Made by a program: the position numbers and the translations under genes
Shown: one piece after another, positions 1-10,759 of the stretch
How positions within the stretch are numbered: the stretch's first letter is position 1
How the letters are laid out: every line of letters begins with the position of its first letter
Source: a bacterium
Lineage (GTDB): Bacteria; Planctomycetota; J058; JAJDCP01
Assembly: GCA_030428695.1 (NCBI GenBank)
Contig: JAUIEM010000354.1
Location: 1-10,759 of the forward strand
Length of the DNA stretch: 10,759 nt
Reading direction: 5' to 3'
Notes under the pieces: model-generated
Databases searched by the model: none
Seen by the model: the letters and a program-made list of their open reading frames with translations, nothing else
What the model was told of the DNA's origin: nothing

Positions 1-965
1 ACGGGCGCGGCCCCATTGAAGCGCCTACCTCTACGACCGCCAGCTGCCCGTGCACCCGGGCATCCGCGCCTGCACGGGCGCGGCCCCATTGAAGCTGGCG
101 TCGCCTCGCTGCCGATCTCGCGGCGCGCAAGGGAGCATCCGCGCCTGCACGGGCGCGGCCCCATTGAAGCATCCAGCCGTAGGCGGGCCCGATACCGTAG
201 CCGAAAAGCATCCGCGCCTGCACGGGCGCGGCCCCATTGAAGCCCCGAACCAGGCGCCATCGACCGGCTCCGGCGCGAGCATCCGCGCCTGCACGGGCGC
301 GGCCCCATTGAAGCGAGGGCGACGGCCGGTCGAACATCCGCCGACTGCGCGCATCCGCGCCTGCACGGGCGCGGCCCCATTGAAGCCCGTTGGCGTCGCG
401 GAGCCGGGCCTGGAAGCCGGCGGCATCCGCGCCTGCACGGGCGCGGCCCCATTGAAGCCCCTTGCTATTCGGTGAGAAGGACGGAGGTGTAGGGCATCCG
501 CGCCTGCACGGGCGCGGCCCCATTGAAGCGAACCGTTATGACGATCGCGTACAATGCAGGTGTTGGCATCCGCGCCTGCACGGGCGCGGCCCCATTGAAG
601 CGTGCTGTTGTTGTCGTTCACCGTCCCGCTGGTGAAGAAGCATCCGCGCCTGCACGGGCGCGGCCCCATTGAAGCGCGAGGATCTCGCTGGCCAGTTCCG
701 CGCACCGGGCATGCATCCGCGCCTGCACGGGCGCGGCCCCATTGAAGCCACCGCGAGCTGCTCTACTTCGACGAGGCGCACCTGCATCCGCGCCTGCACG
801 GGCGCGGCCCCATTGAAGCGCGGACCAGAAGGTCCGAGCTTCGACCCGCAAACGGAGGCATCCGCGCCTGCACGGGCGCGGCCCCATTGAAGCGTTCTGT
901 AGGTAAAAGTTTTATTCGCTGGGTTTCATGCATCCGCGCCTGCACGGGAGCACCCAGCTGACCTC
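1..965 (+). CRISPR. CRISPR array, trailer end: 36-nt repeats, 13 spacers
   Basis: The repeat begins GCATCCGCGCC, has GGGCGCGG in the middle and ends CCCCATTGAAGC. The window opens inside repeat 1 (1-22, last 22 nt). Twelve complete, identical repeats start at 60, 135, 208, 279, 351, 423, 494, 566, 640, 713, 784 and 858. A degenerate last copy begins at 930. Spacers are 35-39 nt. Each repeat holds a 7-bp stem (CCGCGCC/GGCGCGG, repeat positions 5-11 and 18-24) around a 6-nt loop. The ATTGAAGC 3' end resembles the ATTGAAA(C/G) handle of many type I repeats. Together with the decayed copy at the high-coordinate end, this sets transcription on the + strand and places the leader before position 1. 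No cas gene is in the window, so the subtype is open. The CCCCATTGAAGC ending faintly recalls type I-G (formerly I-U) repeats, which is only an impression. Confidence 0.98.
930..965 (+). repeat. Degenerate terminal CRISPR repeat
   Basis: The first 19 bases (930-948) match the repeat exactly. From 949 the sequence leaves the consensus completely and enters the truncated PIN-toxin gene on the other strand. A decayed last copy is normal at the trailer end of an array. Here the loss is an abrupt break, not scattered substitutions, which points to a rearrangement junction at about 948/949. Confidence 0.9.
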
Positions 966-1090
966 GTCAAGCACCACCGTCGAGAGCCACACGCCGCCAG
1001 CAACCAGCGCCGTGGACCAGGCTTGTGCAACCCATCGCGACCGAAGCGGTCATCCTTCACAGTCAGCCGGACCACGAGGTGGGTGTCAAG
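949..1090 (-). pseudogene. Broken PIN-domain toxin (VapC-like), N-terminal remnant
   Basis: On the minus strand just after the antitoxin, 1090 down to about 1050 reads LDTHLVVRLTVKDD, the usual PIN N-terminus with its first acidic residue (LDT). The frame then has to slip. Inserting one base near 1048-1049 restores DPLRSRWVAQAW, then ALVAGGVWLSTVV and LDEVSWVL, the canonical PIN segment containing the conserved Glu. At 949 the frame runs straight into the last CRISPR repeat, so the C-terminal part with the remaining acidic residues is missing. No ATG or GTG precedes LDT. In intact modules the toxin start usually overlaps the antitoxin stop, but here only TGA is left at the junction. Three defects (lost start, frameshift, 3' truncation) make it non-functional. 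PIN proteins are metal-dependent RNases, normally partners of VapB-type antitoxins. Confidence 0.8.
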
Positions 1091-1331
1091 CGGCGCCGGC
1101 CGCCCCCTCCGCGATGGCCTGATCCATGTCCTCCAGGGACACCGGCGCGACGCCGGAGGGGCGGGAGAGCCGGCGACGGAGCAGGTAGGTGTCGAAGCTG
1201 ATCCGCTCGAGCTCGGTCTCGCGATCGGCTTCCACCGCAACCAACTGGACGTTGCGTCCAAGCAGCGGCCGCAGGGCAGGGAGAGCCCGCACCAGCCGCT
1301 CTTCGACGACGAGCTCGACTTTCACTTCCAT
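1086..1331 (-). CDS. Putative antitoxin of a VapBC-like module (orphaned)
   Basis: This 81-residue acidic protein starts MEVKVELVVEERLVRAL and ends in the region LSRPSGVAPVSLEDMDQAI. The Pro-Gly-Val-x-Pro-(V/L)-(S/T)-Leu-Glu-(D/E)-Met-Asp tail is one I associate with small antitoxins encoded just before PIN toxins. The ATG at 1331 is chosen because GAGGA lies 8 bases upstream; a longer TTG-started form to 1361 has no such support. The antitoxin role rests mainly on position: the stop codon abuts the PIN remnant in the expected antitoxin-toxin order. No AbrB, RHH or Phd motif is obvious, so the DNA-binding fold is unknown. The gene lies 81 bp after the large minus-strand gene and may be read from its transcript. 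With the toxin broken, it would be an orphan, selectively neutral or able to neutralise related toxins elsewhere. Confidence 0.65.
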   Translation of the reverse strand: MEVKVELVVEERLVRALPALRPLLGRNVQLVAVEADRETELERISFDTYLLRRRLSRPSGVAPVSLEDMDQAIAEGAAGAA

Positions 1332-1412
1332 CACGGTGGTCCTCGCGGCAGCGCCCACCAAGGCTGGGGCGATCCAACTTCATCCTACGCGAGACGCCCC
1401 GAAGACCCCCCT

Positions 1413-4400
1413 TCAATTCCCCCCGGGTGTCGCCGTCCGGATGGTGTCCGACAACAGCAGCGCGTCCCGCTCGATCCGCGCCGGATCGCAGCCTTGGGTG
1501 AACAGGTACTTCGCGTAGTCGCGCAGGGCGGTGAAGCCGTGCTTGGCGAAGTCGTCCGCGAGGTCGCAGTGGGTCGGGTCGGAGAACAGGTTGACGACCG
1601 CCGTGAAGATCGCCTCCAGGGCGTGCAGGTTGGTCGCCCCGAAGTGACGGCGGGCGGCGTTGAGGATGTTGTTCTTCTCGGCGATCAGGTCGCTGTTGAA
1701 GCTGTCGTAGCACGCGTTCATCGCCTGGTTCTGCGCGTCGAAGCCGATCTCCTTCAGGGTGAAGGGCAGGTCGTGGATGATGTGGGCGGTCATGCTCATG
1801 CCGATGATCTCGCTGCAGCTGAGCAGGGCGTAGTCGATCGCCTGCCCGACCCGCCCGGAGTCGAAGGTCGCGCGCCAGATCTCCTTGACCTTCGCCGGAT
1901 CGACCGCGTAGTCGTCGTAGGCCTGGAAGAACTTGTTCCCGAAGTTCGAGATCAGGCGGCCCTCGAAGAGCGCCTCGACCGTCTTGCCGTCGGCGTGCAG
2001 CTGGCGCAGGATCGCGAGGGCCTTGTCGGTGATCACCCGGTACATCGAGGAGAACAGGCCGCGGTGGTCCTTGCCCGGGCCGAGGGTGTTCTCCATGTCG
2101 ATCAGCCGGGCGCGGGCGAGCTCGGCCTTCTCGATCAGCTGCTCGACGCTGTCCGTCGAGGTCGGCAGCGGCACCCTGGCGAAGGCCTTCGGGCTCTTCT
2201 GGGGTGCGAAGAAACGGATGTGCTGGTCGTCGGAGCAGATCGCGAGCAGGTTCCCGCCGCCGATGTTCGTGATGAAGCGGCCGGCGCGGATCTGGCCGTA
2301 GCTGCCGAGGTCCGGCCCGGGCACGACCCCGGCCTCGATCAGGTAGATGTAGAACGTGCCGCCGTCCTCGATCAGCGCGGTGTCCGGGTCGTCGAGGATG
2401 CGCCACTCCTCGCGGGCGGCGACGACCACCTCGCGCTCGCTGGCGTAGCCGCTCACGGTACCGATGACGTTGCCGAGCTTGAGAGGGATGCTCCCGACCG
2501 CCCCGAGGTCCTGCCCGGTCAGCCGGCCCGGCTCCCCGATCGGCAGCAGCAGCTTCGGGACGTCCTTGAGCAGCACGCGCATCAGCTCGATCGCGTAGCT
2601 GTCGAAGTTGTCGTAGAAGTCCTTCGCGGCCTCCTCGATCACGCGCTTCAGCTCGTCGGGGTTCTCGGCGTACTCCTTCGCCTTCTCGAACAGCTGGATC
2701 GACTCGACCATCGCCTTCTCGAGCCACTGCTGCAGCGAGAGCAGAAATGCCGAGAGATGGTGCAGGCCGGCCTGCCAGTATTCCCGGGTGTCCTCGATGC
2801 CCTTGAAGGCCGTCTCCCAGATGCTCTGCACGCCGACCACGTTGCTGCCGCCGCCGTGGCGGTCGTAGTTCAGCATCATCTTGAGGAAGGCCGGGGAGTA
2901 GCTCGAGAAGGTCTCGAGCACCCCCATCACCCCCGAGAAGCCGCTGCCGGAGGGGTTCTCGAGCAGCTTGATCTCCTTGCCGCCGGCCTTGACCGAGTCC
3001 GGCACGGCCCAGTAGATGCCGAGCTGGCCGATGCCGTCCAGGCCCTCGCCGAGCGCGGCGAAGGCCTTGTAGCCCTCCTTCTTCGCGAGCTTCTCGATCG
3101 CGTCGACGCAGGCCGTCCCGAGGTCGTAGGCATCCGCCGCCGTCATGCAGGCCTGCAGGCCGGTGTCGCCGAGGCCGACGCTCAGCGCGCAGTCCTGCTC
3201 GACCAGCCCGGTCATCGGGGGGGAGGCGAAGCCGCTCGGGATCGGCGAGATCTTGAGCAGGTTCAGGCCGACGCCGGTGTTCCGCCCGTGGCCGAAGCCG
3301 ACACCGACGTAGGGGTAGGCGTTGACCTCGTCGCCGTGGCGCACCCAGGTCACCCCGAAGCTCTCGACCATCGAGATCGCCGAGAACAGGAAGTTCAGCC
3401 TGCCGAGCTTCGAGCCGAAGCGGGTCGCCAGCTGGAAGAAGTCCATCAGGTCGAGGACGATGTCGAGGTTGATGCCGAAGGCGTAGCGCTGGTCGACCGG
3501 CCCCTTCTCGTAGGGCGGCGGCAGGATCTTCGCCATCACCTTGAGCAGGAAGTCGCTCGAGGCGATCGCCTCGGCGGCGTCGACGAAGTACTTCTCGACC
3601 TGCTCCCAGCCGCGCCGGAACATGTTCTTGTTGAAGCCCTCCGCGAAGGCCTCGCGCATCTCCGCCTGGAGCTTCGCATCGCCGACGTCGAAGCCGAAGG
3701 CTGCCAGGTACGGGGTGGCGGCCTCCGCGACCGACTGGCCGACCGCGGTGGCGCCCTTCTGCCCCCAGCGGATCCCGGAATAGATGTTCGCCTTGCGCCC
3801 GTAGCCGGAGAGGATGTTGATCACGGTGTGCTCGGCTTTGAAGTGCTCGAGCATCTCCTTGACCATGTCGCGGATCATCGGCTTGCTCGTGTTCTCCCAG
3901 GCGTGCTGGTCGAAGGTCAGGAGCTGGCCCATGTACGAGGCGTTGTGCAGGACCTTCTCGAAGCTCTTCTTCAGCTGCGCCCAGCTCGGCACGTCGATGT
4001 AGCTCAGGGGGACGCTCTTGCCCTGGATCTCGGTCGTGCCGCTCAGGCGGGTGCGGTCCTCGAAGCGCAGCCGCGTCGTGCCGCTCTCCTGGTGGCGGGT
4101 GTTGGTCCAGTCGAGGACGACGTCGCTGCCGTTGACCTCGACCCGCGTGATGTCCCCGACCACGTCGCCGCCCGTCAGGCTCTTCTGGGTGTAGCTGCCG
4201 GTCACGTGGCCGTTCTTCCGCTCGAACTGGACGACCGCGCCGAGCGGATCGATGGTCCAGTAGCCGAGCAGGTCGTCGGCGTCGTAGGCCTGCTTCTTGT
4301 AGACCGGGGCATCACAGATCTTCGACCTGATCTTCTTGACGACGTCGACGGAGTCGTAGCGCATCTCCCCGCTGATCGTGTTGTTCGCCTGGAGCTCGAA

Positions 4401-5123
4401 GATGAAGGTCCCGGCATAGGACTGCTGGTCGTCCTTCCAGCGGCCCCTCAGGGTCCTGCCGGCGAACGCGACGTCGGTGAACTTGCCGGTCTTGTCCTTG
4501 GCGATCCAGTACTCGCCCGTGTAGGCCTTGCCGGTGTCGTCGGTCGGGCAGAACCAGAAGTAGCCGAAGGAAGCGAACGGATCGCACTCCCATTTGCCCC
4601 ACGACAGCACGCGCTCGCTGTTCTCCGCCTGCAGGAAGCGGGCGGCCGGCTCGACCGTCTCGAGGAAGGGGGCGCGCTGGAAGCCGCGGAGCTCCTGGGC
4701 GAAGACCCGCAGGCTGCGGATCAGCTCCTCCGGCTGGGTGCCGGACTCGAGGTTGTACAGCGTGCTGCTGTCCGTCAGGTTCTTCGGCTCCTCGAAGGCG
4801 ATGGTGGTGCCCTTCGGGGCCGCCTTCTTCAGCCACTTCTCGACCACGGTCAAGAGGTTGAGGATCTCGGGGAAGATCTCCGCCCAGGCCGTCGCCGCGG
4901 CGTCCTGGCCGTCGGCGACCTTGGGGAAGAGGGTGTCGATGACGTGGGAGCGGGTCAGGAACTGGTCGAGGTCGTAGGACTTCTTCGCGTTGTAGACGCT
5001 GTCCCAGGTCTCTCGGATCAGGCCCTTGGAGTAGACGTGGTCGACCTTCTCGTTGAAGGGCACGATGCGGGCGATGATCTCGTCGATCCAGGTGTCGATG
5101 TCGGCGACGCATTTGTCGACCAT
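1413..5123 (-). CDS. Large soluble multidomain protein, DUF5995-like C-terminus
   Basis: The protein is 1236 residues with no signal peptide and no clear membrane helix. The ATG at 5123 has GAGGAG 7 bases upstream, overlapping the stop of the preceding gene 12 bp away, so the two are an operon. Residues 1-170 look helical. Residues about 172-257 (GEYWIAKDK, GRWKDDQQSYAGTFIFEL) and 270-377 (LLGYWTIDP, GHVTGSYTQ) look like two beta-rich, lipocalin- or avidin-like modules. The middle, about 380-860, is mixed and includes a Gly-rich stretch (YPYVGVGFGHGRNTGVG). A further beta-rich part lies near 875-980. The C-terminal part, about 1005-1200, fits the DUF5995 pattern as I know it: YRVITDK, then MTAHIIHDLP (1109-1120), then a D..N..L helix. 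H1114, H1117 and D1118 are candidate functional residues. The function is unknown; secretion by a specialised machine is speculation. Confidence 0.85.
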   Translation of the reverse strand: MVDKCVADIDTWIDEIIARIVPFNEKVDHVYSKGLIRETWDSVYNAKKSYDLDQFLTRSHVIDTLFPKVADGQDAAATAWAEIFPEILNLLTVVEKWLKKAAPKGTTIAFEEPKNLTDSSTLYNLESGTQPEELIRSLRVFAQELRGFQRAPFLETVEPAARFLQAENSERVLSWGKWECDPFASFGYFWFCPTDDTGKAYTGEYWIAKDKTGKFTDVAFAGRTLRGRWKDDQQSYAGTFIFELQANNTISGEMRYDSVDVVKKIRSKICDAPVYKKQAYDADDLLGYWTIDPLGAVVQFERKNGHVTGSYTQKSLTGGDVVGDITRVEVNGSDVVLDWTNTRHQESGTTRLRFEDRTRLSGTTEIQGKSVPLSYIDVPSWAQLKKSFEKVLHNASYMGQLLTFDQHAWENTSKPMIRDMVKEMLEHFKAEHTVINILSGYGRKANIYSGIRWGQKGATAVGQSVAEAATPYLAAFGFDVGDAKLQAEMREAFAEGFNKNMFRRGWEQVEKYFVDAAEAIASSDFLLKVMAKILPPPYEKGPVDQRYAFGINLDIVLDLMDFFQLATRFGSKLGRLNFLFSAISMVESFGVTWVRHGDEVNAYPYVGVGFGHGRNTGVGLNLLKISPIPSGFASPPMTGLVEQDCALSVGLGDTGLQACMTAADAYDLGTACVDAIEKLAKKEGYKAFAALGEGLDGIGQLGIYWAVPDSVKAGGKEIKLLENPSGSGFSGVMGVLETFSSYSPAFLKMMLNYDRHGGGSNVVGVQSIWETAFKGIEDTREYWQAGLHHLSAFLLSLQQWLEKAMVESIQLFEKAKEYAENPDELKRVIEEAAKDFYDNFDSYAIELMRVLLKDVPKLLLPIGEPGRLTGQDLGAVGSIPLKLGNVIGTVSGYASEREVVVAAREEWRILDDPDTALIEDGGTFYIYLIEAGVVPGPDLGSYGQIRAGRFITNIGGGNLLAICSDDQHIRFFAPQKSPKAFARVPLPTSTDSVEQLIEKAELARARLIDMENTLGPGKDHRGLFSSMYRVITDKALAILRQLHADGKTVEALFEGRLISNFGNKFFQAYDDYAVDPAKVKEIWRATFDSGRVGQAIDYALLSCSEIIGMSMTAHIIHDLPFTLKEIGFDAQNQAMNACYDSFNSDLIAEKNNILNAARRHFGATNLHALEAIFTAVVNLFSDPTHCDLADDFAKHGFTALRDYAKYLFTQGCDPARIERDALLLSDTIRTATPGGN

Positions 5124-5135
5124 GAGCAGGCTCCT

Positions 5136-5855
5136 CTATCTCTCGTGTTTCCAGTGACGCGTTCCGCCGAACCCCGGCCCACGCCCGCCGGGCCCGTCGA
5201 CCCCGACGCCGGCGAGCGAGCGCGTGCCGCGGGGCCCGAAGCCGAGCTCGAGGCGGTAGTCGCCCTCCGGGCAGCGCCGGAACTCCGCCTTGCCCGTCGC
5301 GTCGCTGACCGAGTGCTGGACGCTGCCGTCGGCGAAGCGCAGCCGGCAGGGCTCGAAGGCCAGCGCACGCCCCACCTCGTCCTTCAGCTCCTCGACGATC
5401 GTCCGCTCCGGGGGCTCCTCGGGCGTCTTCGCCGGCGACGGAGCGGCGGAGGCGGGGTCCACGGCCGCGGGCTCCTTCGTGGCCGGACGCCCGGGCCGAC
5501 GCCAGGCGCGGAGCAAGGCGCCCGGGGCGGGACGCTCCGGGACCGGTCCGCCGCCGACACCGCCGACGGCGCGCGTGCCACGGGTTCCGAAGCCGAGCTC
5601 GAGGCTGTAGTCCCCGGCGGGGCAGTCGCGGAACTCCGCCTTGCCCGTCGCGTCGCTGACCGAGTGCTGGACGCTGCCGTCGGCGAAGCGCAGCCGGCAG
5701 GGCTCGAAGGCCAGCGCCCGCCCCACCTCGTCCTTCAGCTCCTCGACGATCGTCCGCTTGTCGACGATCACGAACTTGTAGCCGCGCCCGGTGCGCAGCT
5801 GGACGCCGCGCGCCAGGGTGTGTCGACCGTGACGCCTCGTGCCTTTCCCGGCCAT
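5136..5855 (-). CDS. Protein with two tandem beta-domain repeats (carboxypeptidase-regulatory-like)
   Basis: The protein has 239 residues. ATG at 5855 is chosen because GGAGAGGAGG ends 5 bases upstream; upstream codons in the frame lie inside the gene before it and are not protein-like. Residues 1-33 are basic (RRHGRH, RTGRGYKF). Two copies of one module follow, 34-95 and 151-212, each reading TIVEELKDEVGRALAFEPC, LRFADGSVQHSVSDATGKAEF, then CP(A/E)GDY and LELGFG. They are joined by a Pro/Ala-rich linker. The order (polar strand, DGSV turn, D-x-x-G-K-A, P-x-G-x-Y) is that of carboxypeptidase-regulatory or transthyretin-like beta-sandwiches, which I associate with VgrG- and effector-linked proteins. 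The C-terminus is Gly-rich. It is the first gene of the operon with the 1236-aa protein, so it may be that protein's partner or carrier; this is inferred from coupling only. Confidence 0.85.
   Translation of the reverse strand: MAGKGTRRHGRHTLARGVQLRTGRGYKFVIVDKRTIVEELKDEVGRALAFEPCRLRFADGSVQHSVSDATGKAEFRDCPAGDYSLELGFGTRGTRAVGGVGGGPVPERPAPGALLRAWRRPGRPATKEPAAVDPASAAPSPAKTPEEPPERTIVEELKDEVGRALAFEPCRLRFADGSVQHSVSDATGKAEFRRCPEGDYRLELGFGPRGTRSLAGVGVDGPGGRGPGFGGTRHWKHER
5222..5407. repeat. Long direct repeat, copy 1 (pairs with 5573-5758)
   Basis: This is one of two copies 351 bp (exactly 117 codons) apart. The part 5279-5407 matches 5630-5758 with a single difference (A at 5367, C at 5718), while 5222-5278 is more diverged. 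It encodes the second, C-terminal beta module of the gene here. Confidence 0.95.
5573..5758. repeat. Long direct repeat, copy 2 (pairs with 5222-5407)
   Basis: This is the partner copy encoding the N-terminal beta module. Identity extends to silent third positions, indicating recent duplication or ongoing gene conversion rather than protein-level selection alone. Confidence 0.95.
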
Positions 5856-5875
5856 CCCCGCCTCCTCTCCGGCGG

Positions 5876-5893
5876 CCGCGGGGGATCCCGCGG
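5876..5893 (-). other. Hairpin upstream of the beta-domain operon
   Basis: CCGCGGG and CCCGCGG form a perfect 7-bp GC stem around a 4-base loop, 20 bp before the ATG at 5855 and just ahead of its ribosome binding site. If transcribed it could affect translation or mark a processing site. No U-tract follows, so a classical terminator is unlikely. Confidence 0.5.
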
Positions 5894-5935
5894 TCGCGGT
5901 GCACGCTGATGGGAGGGGAGGTTGCAACCGGCGTT

Positions 5936-5955
5936 CCAGGCGAGAGACGGCCTGG
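5936..5955. repeat. Inverted repeat between DUF2254 gene and beta-domain operon
   Basis: CCAGGC and GCCTGG (6 bp each) are separated by 8 bases within the 164-bp gap between genes. A perfect 8-bp palindrome, GTTGCAAC, lies at 5921-5928. Either could be an operator or a weak terminator for the upstream gene. There is no T-run, and I see no convincing -35/-10 pair here. Confidence 0.35.
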
Positions 5956-6002
5956 CAGGCAGAACGGGCCCGACGCACGCGGGCACGCCGACGGCAGTTC
6001 GC

Positions 6003-6025
6003 CTTTACAGCTTTACAGCTTACAG
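6003..6025 (-). repeat. Tandem octamer at the stop of the DUF2254-like gene
   Basis: On the + strand CTTTACAG occurs twice (6003-6010 and 6011-6018), followed by CTTACAG (6019-6025). The gene's TAA stop (6020-6022) lies within it, and the same frame meets a second TAA at 6005-6007. This is probably a slippage-generated micro-repeat. Confidence 0.85.
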
Positions 6026-7600
6026 CTTCGAGGCTCCGACTGCCTTCCACAGGCAGGCCTTGACCGCGTGGTAGGCGTCCTTCTTCTCCGGCGGGATGAA
6101 GTCGAGGTGCAGGCGCCGGTCGGTCACTTCCCAGAAGTACGGCGTCGTCACGCTGTCGATCTCCGCCACGGCGGCTTCGAGCCGCGCGCGGGGGGCGCGG
6201 CACAGCTGCCGGCAGATGCGCTCGACCAGCTCGCGCTGGCCGAGGGCCTCGAGCTCGACGGCCAGGCCGATGCGGCTCTTCAGCACGCCGGGGATGGTCG
6301 CGAGGCTCTCGCTGCGGTCGAAGTCCATGCACAGCTCGAACAGCGCCCCGCGGCAGTCGGCGGCGTGCTCGAAGGCGACCCGCACCAGGGCCGCGAGGTC
6401 ATAGGCGACCAGGTTGGCGACGAAGACGATGCCCGCGCGGACCGCCTGATGGCCGTAGTAGTCGAGGTAGAAGGCGACGCGCAGGGCGTCCTTGGGGCTG
6501 AGGTCGATCAGCTCCTGGGCGAGCTGACGGTACTGGAAGACCAGCATGTAGATCGCGTCGGGGTTGCGGGCCGAGATCGCCGCGCGGATGAAGGAGTTGA
6601 AGTAGGTGCACACCGCCTCGACGGCCCCCGCGTCGCCCGCGGCGACGGCGACCTTGCCCATGTGCCGGACCATGTTCCCGATCATGCGCACGCCGTCGCG
6701 GAACTTCCCGATCGCGACCGACAGCACCAGGGCGCACTCCTCGAGCAGCTCGACCTCGAAGATCGTGCCGGCGTCCTCGATCTGCCGGATCACCTGGTGC
6801 GACTGGGCGAGGAACTCGTTGCGCTGGGCGCGGAACCACAGCGCGGGCATGTCCTTCTTGCGGTCGAAGTAGTGGTCGAACAGCCGCCGCAACGCCTCGA
6901 GGCTGTGCAGGGCGGTGTCGCGGTCGTAGCGGTCGATCGAGCGCAGGGTGATGTTCGACAGGTACTTGATGTTCTGGACCACATCCGTGCGCACCAGCGC
7001 GGGGTCGCGGGCCTTGCCCCGGGCGAGCAGCTCGAGCTCCTCGTCGACCTCGCGGCGGATGCGGGTGACGATGCGCTGCGGCATCAGGGCGATGAACACG
7101 TAGAAGGCGTAGGGCGTGACGACCAGCAGGCAGACCAGGGCCAGGGCGCTGGACAGCGCGACGTTGGCGAGCGGCAGGGGATCGCCCGCGCTGGCGAGCA
7201 GGGTCCAGTGGGCGAGGGTGTTCGCGGCGACCATCAGCCCGAACACCGCCCAGTTGATGCGGTCGCGGACGAACATGCTGATCAGCTTCGGGGTATAGTT
7301 GTTCGCGGTCAGCGGGATCGCGATGCCGCACACGGTCACCGTCGCCGCGAGCAGCACGCCGAGCATGCGCGCGAGGGCGGTCATGTAGCGCTGCACGGCC
7401 TCGGGGCTGAAGTCCGCGTCGAAGACCCGGAAGGGCGAGATCGCCGGCTCGAGCAGGCAGTCGATCACCAGGATGCCGAGCAGGGCGGCGACGAACACCG
7501 CGGCGACGCGCACGAGCCGCCGCCGCGAGCTCGCCGGCTTCGCGCTCGGCATCGCGGCGCGCACCTCGCGCGAGGTCATCAGCTCGGAGTGCTCGTGCAC
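6020..7600 (-). CDS. DUF2254-like predicted membrane protein
   Basis: The 526-residue protein begins with GTG at 7600, chosen because AGGAG lies 6 bases upstream; the later ATG (residue 8) has no comparable site. The N-terminus is basic (SSRRRLVRV). Four membrane segments follow at about residues 28-50, 76-100, 110-133 and 143-170. The loop after the second segment, NNYTPKLISMFVRDRINWAV, fits the DUF2254 signature (x-x-(Y/F)-(T/S)-P-(R/K)-x-(L/I)-x-x-F-x-x-D). About 350 residues follow, mostly helical and rich in Leu, Arg and Glu, predicted cytoplasmic. DUF2254 proteins are inner-membrane proteins without established function as far as I know. The gene has its own promoter box (7630-7638). 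It is co-oriented with the two-gene operon 164 bp downstream, but no functional link is visible. Confidence 0.85.
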   Translation of the reverse strand: MHEHSELMTSREVRAAMPSAKPASSRRRLVRVAAVFVAALLGILVIDCLLEPAISPFRVFDADFSPEAVQRYMTALARMLGVLLAATVTVCGIAIPLTANNYTPKLISMFVRDRINWAVFGLMVAANTLAHWTLLASAGDPLPLANVALSSALALVCLLVVTPYAFYVFIALMPQRIVTRIRREVDEELELLARGKARDPALVRTDVVQNIKYLSNITLRSIDRYDRDTALHSLEALRRLFDHYFDRKKDMPALWFRAQRNEFLAQSHQVIRQIEDAGTIFEVELLEECALVLSVAIGKFRDGVRMIGNMVRHMGKVAVAAGDAGAVEAVCTYFNSFIRAAISARNPDAIYMLVFQYRQLAQELIDLSPKDALRVAFYLDYYGHQAVRAGIVFVANLVAYDLAALVRVAFEHAADCRGALFELCMDFDRSESLATIPGVLKSRIGLAVELEALGQRELVERICRQLCRAPRARLEAAVAEIDSVTTPYFWEVTDRRLHLDFIPPEKKDAYHAVKACLWKAVGASKL

Positions 7601-7737: not shown

Positions 7738-8568
7738 TCAGGCCGGGTCGCCGCTCGTGCCGCGCCGCAAGCGCTCCAGCTCGGCCTGGAGCCGCTGCAG
7801 GGCCGCCTCCGCCGCATCCGCGCGGGAAGCCGCCGCGTCCGCCCGGGATGCTTCCGCGTCCGCCCGGGACGCCTCCGCGTCCGCGCGCTCCCCTTCGCTC
7901 GCGACCAGATCGTCGCCGGCCCGGTCGCGGGCGAGCCGGAGGCGCGGCCCCTCATCCGTCGGAACGACGACCGCGCAGGCCTCGATCGCTTCGCACCAGA
8001 CGGGCGCGCTGCCCCGGTGGACGCGGACGAAAGCCCCGTCCTCGGTCCGGCGGTAGAGCTGCATCGCGCAACGCCCGGCATCCACCAGCCCGCGGGCCGC
8101 CGCCGGATCGAAGATCAGCAGCTCCCGCACGCCGAGCTGGAAGTACTTCTGCGGGCCCTGCTCGTAGTCCTTCCGCCAGTCCTCCGAGACGATCTCGACG
8201 GCGAGGGCCGGCGCCCGATGGCCGGGCTCCCACAGCTTCCACGACCCCGGCAGCGGCGGCGGGGGAGGCCCGCCGCGTAGCAGGTAGACGTCCGGCGAGA
8301 CGCGCACCAGGGGATGCGCCTCGACCCAGGCGAAGAAGTTGTCGGCGCCGACCCAGGCGTCCTCCCACGCCCGTTCCCGGACCAGCTCCCGCAGGACCGA
8401 CAGCAGCAGGCGGATGATCTCCCCTTGCTCGCACCCCTCGCCCATGTCTTCCTCGTCCGTCAGGTACCAGGCGGACCAGTCGACCTGCCCGGCCCAGGCC
8501 GCAGGCTCGGGGTCGGCGATGACGGCCGCCGCCCGGGGGGGACGCGTCGCGGTCGGTGTTTCGCTCAT
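7738..8568 (-). CDS. Uma2-family (DUF820) PD-(D/E)XK nuclease-like protein
   Basis: The protein has 276 residues. ATG at 8568 has GGAGG 7 bases upstream. The Uma2 core is clear: VRVSPDVYLL (D93), LAVEIVSED (E125), then KDYEQGPQKYFQLGVREL and LIFDP, with K141 as the likely catalytic lysine. Family members are compact restriction-endonuclease-like proteins, abundant in cyanobacteria and some GC-rich bacteria, often with neither known target nor partner. After the core, residues about 228-268 are four heptad-like units (ASRADAE/A) running into LQRLQAELERLRR, predicted to form a helical coiled-coil tail that could drive oligomerisation. The gene is monocistronic, with its own promoter box at 8586-8594, divergent from the lipoprotein gene. 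All core residues look intact; nuclease activity is inferred from the family. Confidence 0.92.
   Translation of the reverse strand: MSETPTATRPPRAAAVIADPEPAAWAGQVDWSAWYLTDEEDMGEGCEQGEIIRLLLSVLRELVRERAWEDAWVGADNFFAWVEAHPLVRVSPDVYLLRGGPPPPPLPGSWKLWEPGHRAPALAVEIVSEDWRKDYEQGPQKYFQLGVRELLIFDPAAARGLVDAGRCAMQLYRRTEDGAFVRVHRGSAPVWCEAIEACAVVVPTDEGPRLRLARDRAGDDLVASEGERADAEASRADAEASRADAAASRADAAEAALQRLQAELERLRRGTSGDPA
7808..7891 (-). repeat. 21-bp tandem repeat encoding heptads in the Uma2 tail
   Basis: About four imperfect 21-bp units, each containing the pattern GC(A/G)TCCGC(C/G)CG, encode the heptads ASRADAE/A. The unit length keeps frame and heptad register, so copy number can change by slippage without breaking the protein. 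Confidence 0.9.
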
Positions 8569-9139: not shown

Positions 9140-10303
9140 ATGGAACGCGCACCTTTCACCTTGCGCCCCGCGCAGGACTACCGCGCGCTGGCCCGGGAAG
9201 TCCCCTTCTACCGCGACGGCATCCCCGCGCGGGTCGACAAGGACGCCGTGCGAGGCCGGGCCGAGGAGCTGCTCCACCCCCTCGCCCGGGACGAGCGGCC
9301 GAAGCTCGGGCACACCTCCGGCAGCACCGGGGCGCCCTTGACGTTCTACGAGAGCGCCCTCGACCACGCCGCGGCGCGGGAGTGCTACAACCGGCTGTAC
9401 CAGATGCTGCCCGGGCGCCACTACCGGGCGCTCACCATCCGCGACGTCGCCTCGACCGACGCGCCGGACGCGCCCCCCTTCGTCGTCGACGGGCCGGGCT
9501 TCGAGCACCTGTTCCGCCAGCTCTCCTCTCGCGAGAGCTGTGATCTGCTCGCCGACCGTGTCGAATCCGAGGCACCCGGCCTGCTCGAGGGCTACCCGTC
9601 GATCCTGCACCTGCTCGCGCGGGTGCTCGTCAGCCGCGGGCGGACGCTGCCGAGCGTCGAGGTGATCAGCCCCTGCGGCGAGCTGTGCGACGCGCGGGAC
9701 CGGGAGGTCTTCGCGCGGGCCTTTCCGCAGGCGCGGGTCTTCAACCGCTACGGCTGCCTCGAGCTCGGCTCCCTGGCCTGGGAGTGCCCGCTGTGTGGCT
9801 GGTACCACTTCAACACCGACCACTACGCCCTGCGCATCGAGCCCGACCAGGAGCTGGTGGTCAGCAAGCGCTTCCCCTCCGCCTGCCAGCTCGCCCACTA
9901 CGCCCTCGGCGACAAGCTGCGCTTCGTGTCCTTCGGGGAGTGTCCCGTGCCGCTTCCGGCGGTCGAGGTGCTCGCCGGGCGGCGCGACCAGCTGCTGATC
10001 GACGACGCGGGCGAGCCGCGCCGCATCCTGATCTTCTACGGCCTACAGGAAGTCGCGGGGCTCCTGCAGTGGCAGCTCGTCCAGCGGGCGGACGGCTCCC
10101 TCGAGCTGTACGCGGTAGTCGAGCGGGAGGGCGAAGCCCTGCGCGCCGAGCTGGAGCGGACGCTGCGCGCCGACCTCGGGCCGGGCTTCGGGCCGCTCAG
10201 CGTGCGCTTCGTGCGGGCGCTGAACGCGACCGCGAAGGGGGTGCGGGTGGTGTCGGAGCGGACACTGGGGGAACCAGGCAGCCGAGGAAGTTCTCCGCGT
10301 TGA
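9140..10303 (+). CDS. CapK/PaaK-type adenylate-forming enzyme
   Basis: The 387-residue protein belongs to the ANL superfamily in the phenylacetate-CoA ligase/CapK branch. Visible motifs are the ATP-binding loop HTSGSTGAPL (58-67), GYPSIL (151-156), SPCGEL (177-182), NRYGCLELG (202-210, the Y-G-x-x-E motif), CPLCGWYHF (216-224), ALGDKLRF (255-262), RRDQLLI (281-287) and near the C-terminus AKGVRVVSER. It should activate a carboxylic acid as acyl-AMP; the acid and the acceptor are not evident. It is somewhat shorter than catabolic PaaK (about 430 aa), mainly at the N-terminus. The ATG at 9140 has GAGGG within the end of the lipoprotein gene, 7 bases upstream, so translation is coupled. No CoA-pathway or polysaccharide gene is adjacent, so phenylacetate catabolism is unlikely. 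The 3' end overlaps the M15 peptidase gene on the other strand. Confidence 0.88.
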   Translation: MERAPFTLRPAQDYRALAREVPFYRDGIPARVDKDAVRGRAEELLHPLARDERPKLGHTSGSTGAPLTFYESALDHAAARECYNRLYQMLPGRHYRALTIRDVASTDAPDAPPFVVDGPGFEHLFRQLSSRESCDLLADRVESEAPGLLEGYPSILHLLARVLVSRGRTLPSVEVISPCGELCDARDREVFARAFPQARVFNRYGCLELGSLAWECPLCGWYHFNTDHYALRIEPDQELVVSKRFPSACQLAHYALGDKLRFVSFGECPVPLPAVEVLAGRRDQLLIDDAGEPRRILIFYGLQEVAGLLQWQLVQRADGSLELYAVVEREGEALRAELERTLRADLGPGFGPLSVRFVRALNATAKGVRVVSERTLGEPGSRGSSPR

Positions 10304-10679
10304 ACCACAGCCGGTCCGGGCGTTCCTCGTCGATGTCGAGGTGCACGTAGTCGTAGCCGAGCTCGACCCGCAGCGGCAGGCGGTGCTCCCGCACGAGCGC
10401 GAGCCAGTGTCCGACCAGCGCGGCGCGCAGGCTGTCGTCCAGACACCCGAAGTCGACCGCCAGGCCGCGGGTGTGGGGGCTGTCCGGGACTCCGCCGACG
10501 GCCTCGTTCCAGGCCGGGCAGCGGCAGAAGGAGTTGACGGTCAGGGGGCGTCCGACCCGCTCATAGAGGCTGTCGAGGAAGCGGAGGAAGCGGGCGGACG
10601 CGGCGCCGAAGCCACATCCACACCCGCAGCGGAGGACCGCGGCGGGGAAGTAGCGGGACGCGCTCATGAGGGTCTGCAT
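10197..10679 (-). CDS. M15-family zinc D,D-carboxypeptidase/endolysin-like peptidase
   Basis: The protein has 160 residues. ATG at 10679 is preceded by GGAGG with 8-base spacing. It matches the Peptidase M15_3 pattern: RYFPAAVLRCGCGCG near the N-terminus, LTVNSFCRCPAWNEAVGGVP, SPHTRGLAVDFG and YDYVHLDID. Predicted zinc ligands are H69, D76 and H113; D110 takes the place of the catalytic acid in the E/D-x-x-H motif. Relatives cleave peptide cross-links of peptidoglycan and are common in phage lysis modules and cell-wall turnover. There is no signal peptide, so it would need a holin-like route, another export path or injection. The gene is 18 bp after the stop of a preceding gene. The last 107 bp overlap the CapK-type gene, and the Pro/Ser/Arg-rich tail after residue 137 is probably a by-product of that overlap. 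Confidence 0.9.
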   Translation of the reverse strand: MQTLMSASRYFPAAVLRCGCGCGFGAASARFLRFLDSLYERVGRPLTVNSFCRCPAWNEAVGGVPDSPHTRGLAVDFGCLDDSLRAALVGHWLALVREHRLPLRVELGYDYVHLDIDEERPDRLWFNAENFLGCLVPPVSAPTPPAPPSRSRSAPARSAR

Positions 10680-10697: not shown

Positions 10698-10759
10698 TCA
10701 GCGCTGCACGCCCTCGCCCCGGTGCACGCCCTCGCCCCGGTGCACGCCCTCGCCCCGGT
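10698..10759 (-). CDS. 3' end of an upstream gene ending in RGEGVH repeats (partial)
   Basis: The minus-strand frame entering from the window edge reads RGEGVH three times (last copy RGEGVQ), then R and TGA (10698-10700). It is called a gene end because it is open to the edge, stays in one frame with an 18-bp (6-codon) repeat, and stops 18 bp before the M15 peptidase ATG, an operon-like distance. The identity of the protein cannot be told from 19 codons. A non-coding minisatellite remains possible. Confidence 0.45.
   Translation of the reverse strand, partial: RGEGVHRGEGVHRGEGVQR
10705..10759. repeat. 18-bp tandem repeat, at least three copies
   Basis: TGCACGCCCTCGCCCCGG is repeated perfectly at 10705-10722, 10723-10740 and 10741-10758, and the next base begins another copy, so the array continues past the window. 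Perfect identity suggests recent expansion and a variable copy number. Confidence 0.97.

Follow-up and report, generated by a model that had tools for sequence, protein, structure and literature searches.

The window analysed here is the whole 10,759-nucleotide (nt) stretch of contig JAUIEM010000354.1, of which seven proteins were scanned against families. Two adjoining genes on its minus strand are the subject of this work: gene A (5136..5855), encoding a tandem prealbumin/transthyretin (TTR)-like, or CarboxypepD_reg-like, protein of 239 amino acids (aa), and gene B (1413..5123), encoding an orphan protein of 1236 aa with a DUF5995-containing module at its end. Tentatively, and with less than even confidence, we read A as a detached spike-type adaptor and B as its cargo. 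The stop codon of A (TAG, 5138-5136) is separated from the start codon of B (ATG at 5123) by the 12-nt gap AGGAGCCTGCTC, which holds AGGAG, the probable ribosome-binding site of B, directly behind the TAG (5131..5135). Because of this 12-nt spacing, the two genes appear to be translationally coupled and made from one message. Third-position GC is 0.976 in B and 0.925 in A, so that both are strongly coding; the 1628-aa plus-strand open reading frame (ORF) covering the same stretch shows the mirror-image GC pattern (0.947, 0.449, 0.635) expected of a shadow frame. Within positions 1000-6300, a search for sigma-70-like promoters gave none, and terminator-like sites occur at chance level (2 found versus 2.2 expected). 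Judged by Kyte-Doolittle hydropathy, without a dedicated signal-peptide predictor, both A and B lack a hydrophobic N-terminus, and neither contains a segment of transmembrane strength (best 19-residue mean 0.37 in A and 1.34 in B). An initial annotation of this DNA had described two genes 12 nt apart, with the AGGAG of B abutting the stop of A and no Sec signal in either protein, and the layout and hydropathy profiles agree with it on these points.

Gene A contains two copies of a 66-residue unit, at aa 34-99 (5559..5756, minus strand, as for all features of A and B below) and aa 151-216 (5208..5405). This internal duplication is close, with 59/66 aa and 181/198 nt identical, and it bears out the initial description of A as a double carboxypeptidase-regulatory-like domain, with a CarboxypepD_reg score that stays below the Pfam cut-off. 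Since 16 of the 17 nt differences sit within the last 70 nt of the unit (the first 128 nt hold one), the copies fit a recent duplication or a partial conversion. Across positions 5208-5756, the uneven spread of these differences suggests conversion of one part. Among phage families, phrog_14789 (unknown function) matches A weakly (E 5.6e-6; first half of A by itself, 0.0034), and plasmids, phages and viral contigs yielded no match to A.

Searching A against 392 Planctomycetota genomes and keeping E ≤ 0.01 gave 21 weak rows in 20 genomes (best E 8.1e-5, for one genome of the 392 searched). All 21 were translated, and four proved to be relatives of the A domain. The remaining 17 were rejected because the match was of low complexity or out of frame or because the protein lacks the domain; they include L028, which is absent from the best rows of a model made from the two window copies only. 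In that model the ORFs of the four relatives take the top places, at E 2.5e-5 to 0.0012; the remaining 17 loci follow only from E 1.6 onwards. Leave-one-out profiles of an 8-row model (Z = 10,000) recovered the left-out locus in 4/4 cases at E 1.6e-7 or better, from an alignment that had been built with the left-out row included. The profile of A with its relatives (A4) matches solved prealbumin-like domains.

Three of the four relatives lie in or directly behind spike genes, and the fourth is a stand-alone peptidoglycan-binding protein. The first (L010/L020) is a Phage_GPD protein with TTR-like domains, PG_binding and a GH75 chitosanase domain. The second (L015/L022) is the C-terminus of a VgrG (Phage_GPD, Gp5_trimer_C, Phage_base_V), and the third (L012/L026) is a 175-aa gene (L026:9658-10185) located 11 nt downstream of a Phage_GPD gene, which has an A-like domain at its own end. 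According to PHROGs, the hubs of L020 and L026 are tail proteins. The fourth relative (L009/L019; L019:4238-5392, ~384 aa) carries PG_binding_1 and is the first of a four-gene run with spacings of 1, 1 and 4 nt (mechanical starts), the second gene of which is weakly metzincin-like. At the level of sequence, the kinship of A with spike-borne domains is thus well supported; that the domain would be exclusive to spikes is not supported.

Two of these loci deserve a description of their own. In L020:1416-4322, the Phage_GPD-like hub is fused to the TTR-like domains, PG_binding (below cut-off) and the GH75 chitosanase domain, an arrangement that can be described as an evolved spike. Across L019:2-5392 the order is TTR-like/PG_binding, weakly metzincin-like, weakly HEAT-like and a 734-aa protein without a family, and this tight four-gene run is possibly a carrier-cargo operon.

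TTR-like domains have a precedent as effector carriers. According to two reports (PMC7043769, PMC6684961), TTR-like domains at the C-terminus of VgrG proteins bind their cognate effectors, stabilise and deliver them, and determine the spike on which each effector travels; this extends to VgrG-effector pairs whose genes lie outside the core cluster. A review counts TTR-like domains among effector signatures (PMC11925235). Gene A would encode the same class of small beta domain as the spikes of the pairs VgrG1-Tle1 (enteroaggregative Escherichia coli, EAEC) and VgrG4b-PldA and VgrG5-PldB (Pseudomonas aeruginosa), and it too lies beside a putative cargo gene. Unlike these, A stands as a gene of its own, lacks a gp27/gp5 hub and carries its domain in two near-identical copies, and its binding of B is a proposal. 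The free-standing CarboxypepD_reg-like genes L026:9658-10185 and L019:4238-5392 resemble A in being small and tightly packed with other genes. A differs from them in its duplication and in lacking a PG-binding match, and no hub gene was found in the window. Among the papers returned by searches on TTR-like or carboxypeptidase-regulatory-like domains with type VI secretion systems or contractile injection, none showed a tandem TTR adaptor that stands alone and is paired with a giant cargo.

We therefore consider the adaptor reading of A to be supported, both because its four relatives are found in or behind spikes or in a peptidoglycan-binding protein and because effector carriage by TTR domains has been published. 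In the scheme that we favour, A would be a free-standing tandem form of the TTR/prealbumin-like domain of contractile-injection spikes (VgrG/Phage_GPD), a domain that elsewhere forms a C-terminal extension of the spike or the gene directly behind it. Made together with B from one message, A would bind and stabilise B and dock it, in trans, onto a spike whose gene lies at another place in the genome. The long N-terminal part of B would serve docking and packing, and its C-terminal 370 residues would act in or on the recipient envelope through the conserved H1114 and D1118. A new form of TTR-mediated cargo loading at A-B is plausible on these comparisons. The scheme rests on A; for B it draws on the shared operon, the lack of a signal and the fact that B's relatives look exported, from which we infer that B may be cargo. 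The adaptor-cargo pair suggested initially has in this way gained independent support for its adaptor half, from the four relatives, and its cargo half keeps the standing it had.

Several observations weigh against this scheme. The single-row E-values of A are weak, even at their best. A plain tblastn search of the fetched loci with A as the query returned the unrelated L021, L024 and L025 at 4e-4 to 0.017, a range that meets that of the true relatives (3e-4 to 0.001), and did not return L019 at E ≤ 1. Against Pfam, A reaches 27.2 bits for CarboxypepD_reg (cut-off 32.3) and 22 bits for SpaA/prealbumin-like (cut-off 23.1), and each half scores weaker than the whole; for the VgrG-terminal domain of L022, Pfam gives nothing at E ≤ 0.05. 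Nothing similar to B turned up at E ≤ 1 in the loci surrounding the relatives of A. None of the seven window proteins matches spike, sheath, PAAR, Rhs or Phage_GPD families, in a record that ends at 10759, and no immunity gene is recognisable behind B, where an 81-aa ORF has no Pfam or NCBIfam match. The initial annotation had named homologue neighbourhoods as the place to look for VgrG/PAAR genes: spikes accompany three of four relatives of A, and the window proteins supply neither.

The specificity of the A domain bears on the scheme in both directions. The domain family is common, with at least 1,994 PF13620 matches in 59 evenly drawn Planctomycetota genomes, and Phage_GPD is rare, with 19 rows in 14/59 of these genomes (12/59 over cut-off); by eye, none of the best-scoring PF13620 matches listed lies within 80 kb of a Phage_GPD position. 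For the adaptor reading we count this background in its favour. In seven chosen genomes the A4 profile gave 28 rows, six of them its own, and 20 of the 22 others fall outside Phage_GPD frames, to the disadvantage of the spike connection; the two that remain, which speak for it, lie in Phage_GPD frames not used for A4 (G306:C216 and G192:C160). Among solved structures, A4 matches best the B-type domains of Gram-positive adhesins (SdrD, 7e-10), well ahead of the effector region of VgrG2b (6h56, 0.0035) and of VgrG 6sjl (1). Phage_GPD is held by 4/4 genomes of A's relatives, which is true by construction for three, so that only the fourth, G192, is informative: its A relative has no adjacent spike gene, and the genome holds Phage_GPD and two Phage_sheath_1 rows. 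Two Phage_sheath_1 rows were found in G024 as well.

These base rates lend themselves to a different account, in which A and B together build a structural complex associated with the envelope or the cell and no injection takes place, A being a protein-protein spacer as in adhesins and B a scaffold with a module that its relatives anchor as lipoproteins. The abundance of the domain class outside spikes, the adhesin domains at the head of the A4 structure matches and the many A4 matches outside Phage_GPD frames all speak for such a complex, as do the lipoprotein-like appearance (by eye) of the relatives of B's end and the same-strand gene upstream of A, which encodes a DUF2254 membrane protein. 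It has to contend with the lack of any hydrophobic N-terminus or transmembrane-strength segment in A and B, and with the position of three of A's four relatives in or directly behind spike genes; we regard it as somewhat unlikely. Together with the enzymatic account considered next, it is nevertheless a serious rival to the reading of B as an injected protein.

The C-terminal module of B (aa 868-1236; 1413..2522) is homologous along its length, the final PGGN included, to two free-standing proteins of 392 and 399 aa, P0002 and P0003, with 32-40% identity depending on the tool. Within it lies a match to Pfam DUF5995 (PF19458; aa 1005-1148; 1680..2111; E 6.9e-12, 45.5 bits against a cut-off of 27), and DUF5995 is above cut-off in B and in both stand-alone proteins. 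The three share the H/D site and a PGGN near or at the C-terminus. At their N-termini, P0002 and P0003 have a signal-peptide-like stretch that runs to the vicinity of a cysteine, by eye a lipoprotein signal, whereas B, with 867 additional residues, lacks an N-terminus of this kind. A search of the protein set with the A2 profile returned P0003 only, among 7,998 candidates scored, and the same profile has no match in viral contigs. DUF5995 was matched in 3/392 Planctomycetota genomes; that neither Phage_GPD nor Phage_sheath_1 occurs in the genomes with stand-alone DUF5995 (0/3) is a further point against an injected B.

The HIIHD motif of B (aa 1114-1118; 1770..1784) has H1114, H1117 and D1118 where the initial annotation had put its H-x-x-H-D motif. 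Six DUF5995 members were aligned, three of them from the three Planctomycetota genomes, and H1114 and D1118 are kept in 6/6; the second histidine of the motif did not hold up as a family trait, H1117 being kept in 3/6, namely in B, P0002 and P0003 only. B also contains the core A-H-I-x-x-D-L, a family mark that we read from these six sequences and not from Pfam. A structure model of the module, made from a 3-row alignment, has a helical core of moderate confidence and an uncertain N-terminal beta part (mean predicted local distance difference test score, pLDDT, 61.6), and no fold match for it stands out in PDB or BFVD.

The kept histidine and aspartate would also suit a cytosolic B that uses a DUF5995 active site for catalysis or ligand binding, with A as a small partner or chaperone and no secretion involved. 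The absent hydrophobic N-terminus of B points the same way, while by eye the proteins most closely related to its C-terminal end have the appearance of exported proteins. A's domain class is, moreover, atypical of cytosolic chaperones. On balance, a cytosolic B seems to us rather unlikely. An enzymatic context for the family exists in the irumamycin cluster, where a DUF5995 protein is encoded beside an F420/flavin-dependent oxidoreductase gene, the relevant passage assigning it no function (PMC11672594), and this too would favour the cytosolic account.

The first 165 residues of B (4629..5123) are predicted to be helical and belong to no Pfam family. Two beta modules follow, the first at about aa 176-265 (4329..4598) and the second, weakly similar to it, at about aa 283-376 (3996..4277); all three regions come from a low-confidence model. 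Blastp aligns the two modules at 25% identity over 77 residues (E 1.9e-4, as a single comparison with no composition correction), and hhalign gives the pair a probability of only 5.9. The middle of B (aa 600-760; 2844..3326) is Gly-rich, with 16.8% Gly against 8.5% overall. An AlphaFold model of residues 1-867 from a single sequence (mean pLDDT 37.4) matches the helix/strand order and is otherwise unusable. The layout proposed initially (helical N-terminus, two beta modules, Gly-rich middle, DUF5995-like end) thus stands, its order in agreement with a model of very low confidence and its DUF5995 end above cut-off. Scans of the whole protein and of five fragments against Pfam and NCBIfam gave no further family above cut-off, and no PAAR or Rhs domain.

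Full-length relatives of B were found neither in viral contigs, plasmids and genome contigs nor by a protein search, in which only B itself was returned among the 7,998 candidates scored (shared words, 0.55-1.75x length). In the 392 Planctomycetota genomes B gave three rows of chance level (E 0.004-0.009 for one genome), which we rejected. One of them (G001) covers the same stretch as a candidate from the A2 search of genome contigs, L001, likewise rejected: the matching segment, SVSEVWRATFD, forms the N-terminal end of a long unrelated ORF, which we take to be 2-oxoglutarate dehydrogenase. B has a sub-cutoff match to the N-terminus of the 2-oxoglutarate dehydrogenase family.

With no full-length homologue of B found on which co-occurrence could be judged, and with internal copies of A that point to recent duplication or conversion, the pairing might also be accidental and serve no shared purpose, a duplicated fast-changing small gene having come to lie beside a giant gene that is strain-specific. 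The 12-nt spacing, the adjoining translation signals and the strong coding bias of both genes make this very unlikely.

Returning to the adaptor-cargo scheme, its furthest extension is that a tandem TTR adaptor delivers a modular cargo of more than 1200 residues and of an undescribed class, with the DUF5995 module, elsewhere a lipoprotein of the cell's own, turned into an injected effector domain. We consider this unlikely. If true, spikes could be loaded in trans, by a clamp of two domains outside VgrG. The adaptor-cargo scheme as such, if right, would make the cargo-binding function of spike TTR domains separable from the spike itself. It would also open a testable route to the function of DUF5995, and a small tandem TTR gene next to a large orphan gene would become a sequence mark for cargo that marker families do not recognise.

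The surroundings of the two genes are varied. On the minus strand upstream of A, the DUF2254 gene (6003-7600) ends 164 nt before A, and its end contains the short tandem repeat CTTTACAG (6003-6028). On the other side, the 81-aa minus-strand ORF (1086-1331), antitoxin-like by eye, starts 81 nt behind B. It is followed at 930-1085 (minus strand) by what looks by eye like a broken remnant of a PIN/VapC-type gene, with pieces in two frames that run into a terminal repeat of an array of clustered regularly interspaced short palindromic repeats (CRISPR). This array occupies positions 1-950 and comprises 12 intact 36-nt repeats (GCATCCGCGCCTGCACGGGCGCGGCCCCATTGAAGC), a partial repeat at the window edge and the degenerate terminal repeat at 930; no cas match was found among the seven window proteins scanned.

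Farther from A, a minus-strand gene (7738-8568) encodes a Uma2-family putative nuclease, part of whose Ala/Asp-rich tail is coded by a 21-nt tandem repeat (7809-7884). At 9140-10679, a plus-strand gene, presumably LuxE/PaaK-like, converges on a minus-strand Peptidase M15_3 gene with an overlap of 107 nt; its AMP-binding match is below cut-off, and it has 24-36% matches in 61/392 Planctomycetota genomes, so that the relatives used for A may belong to a different phylum from that of the window. Finally, a perfect 18-nt tandem repeat (TGCACGCCCTCGCCCCGG) of 3.1 copies fills positions 10705-10759 and reaches the window edge.

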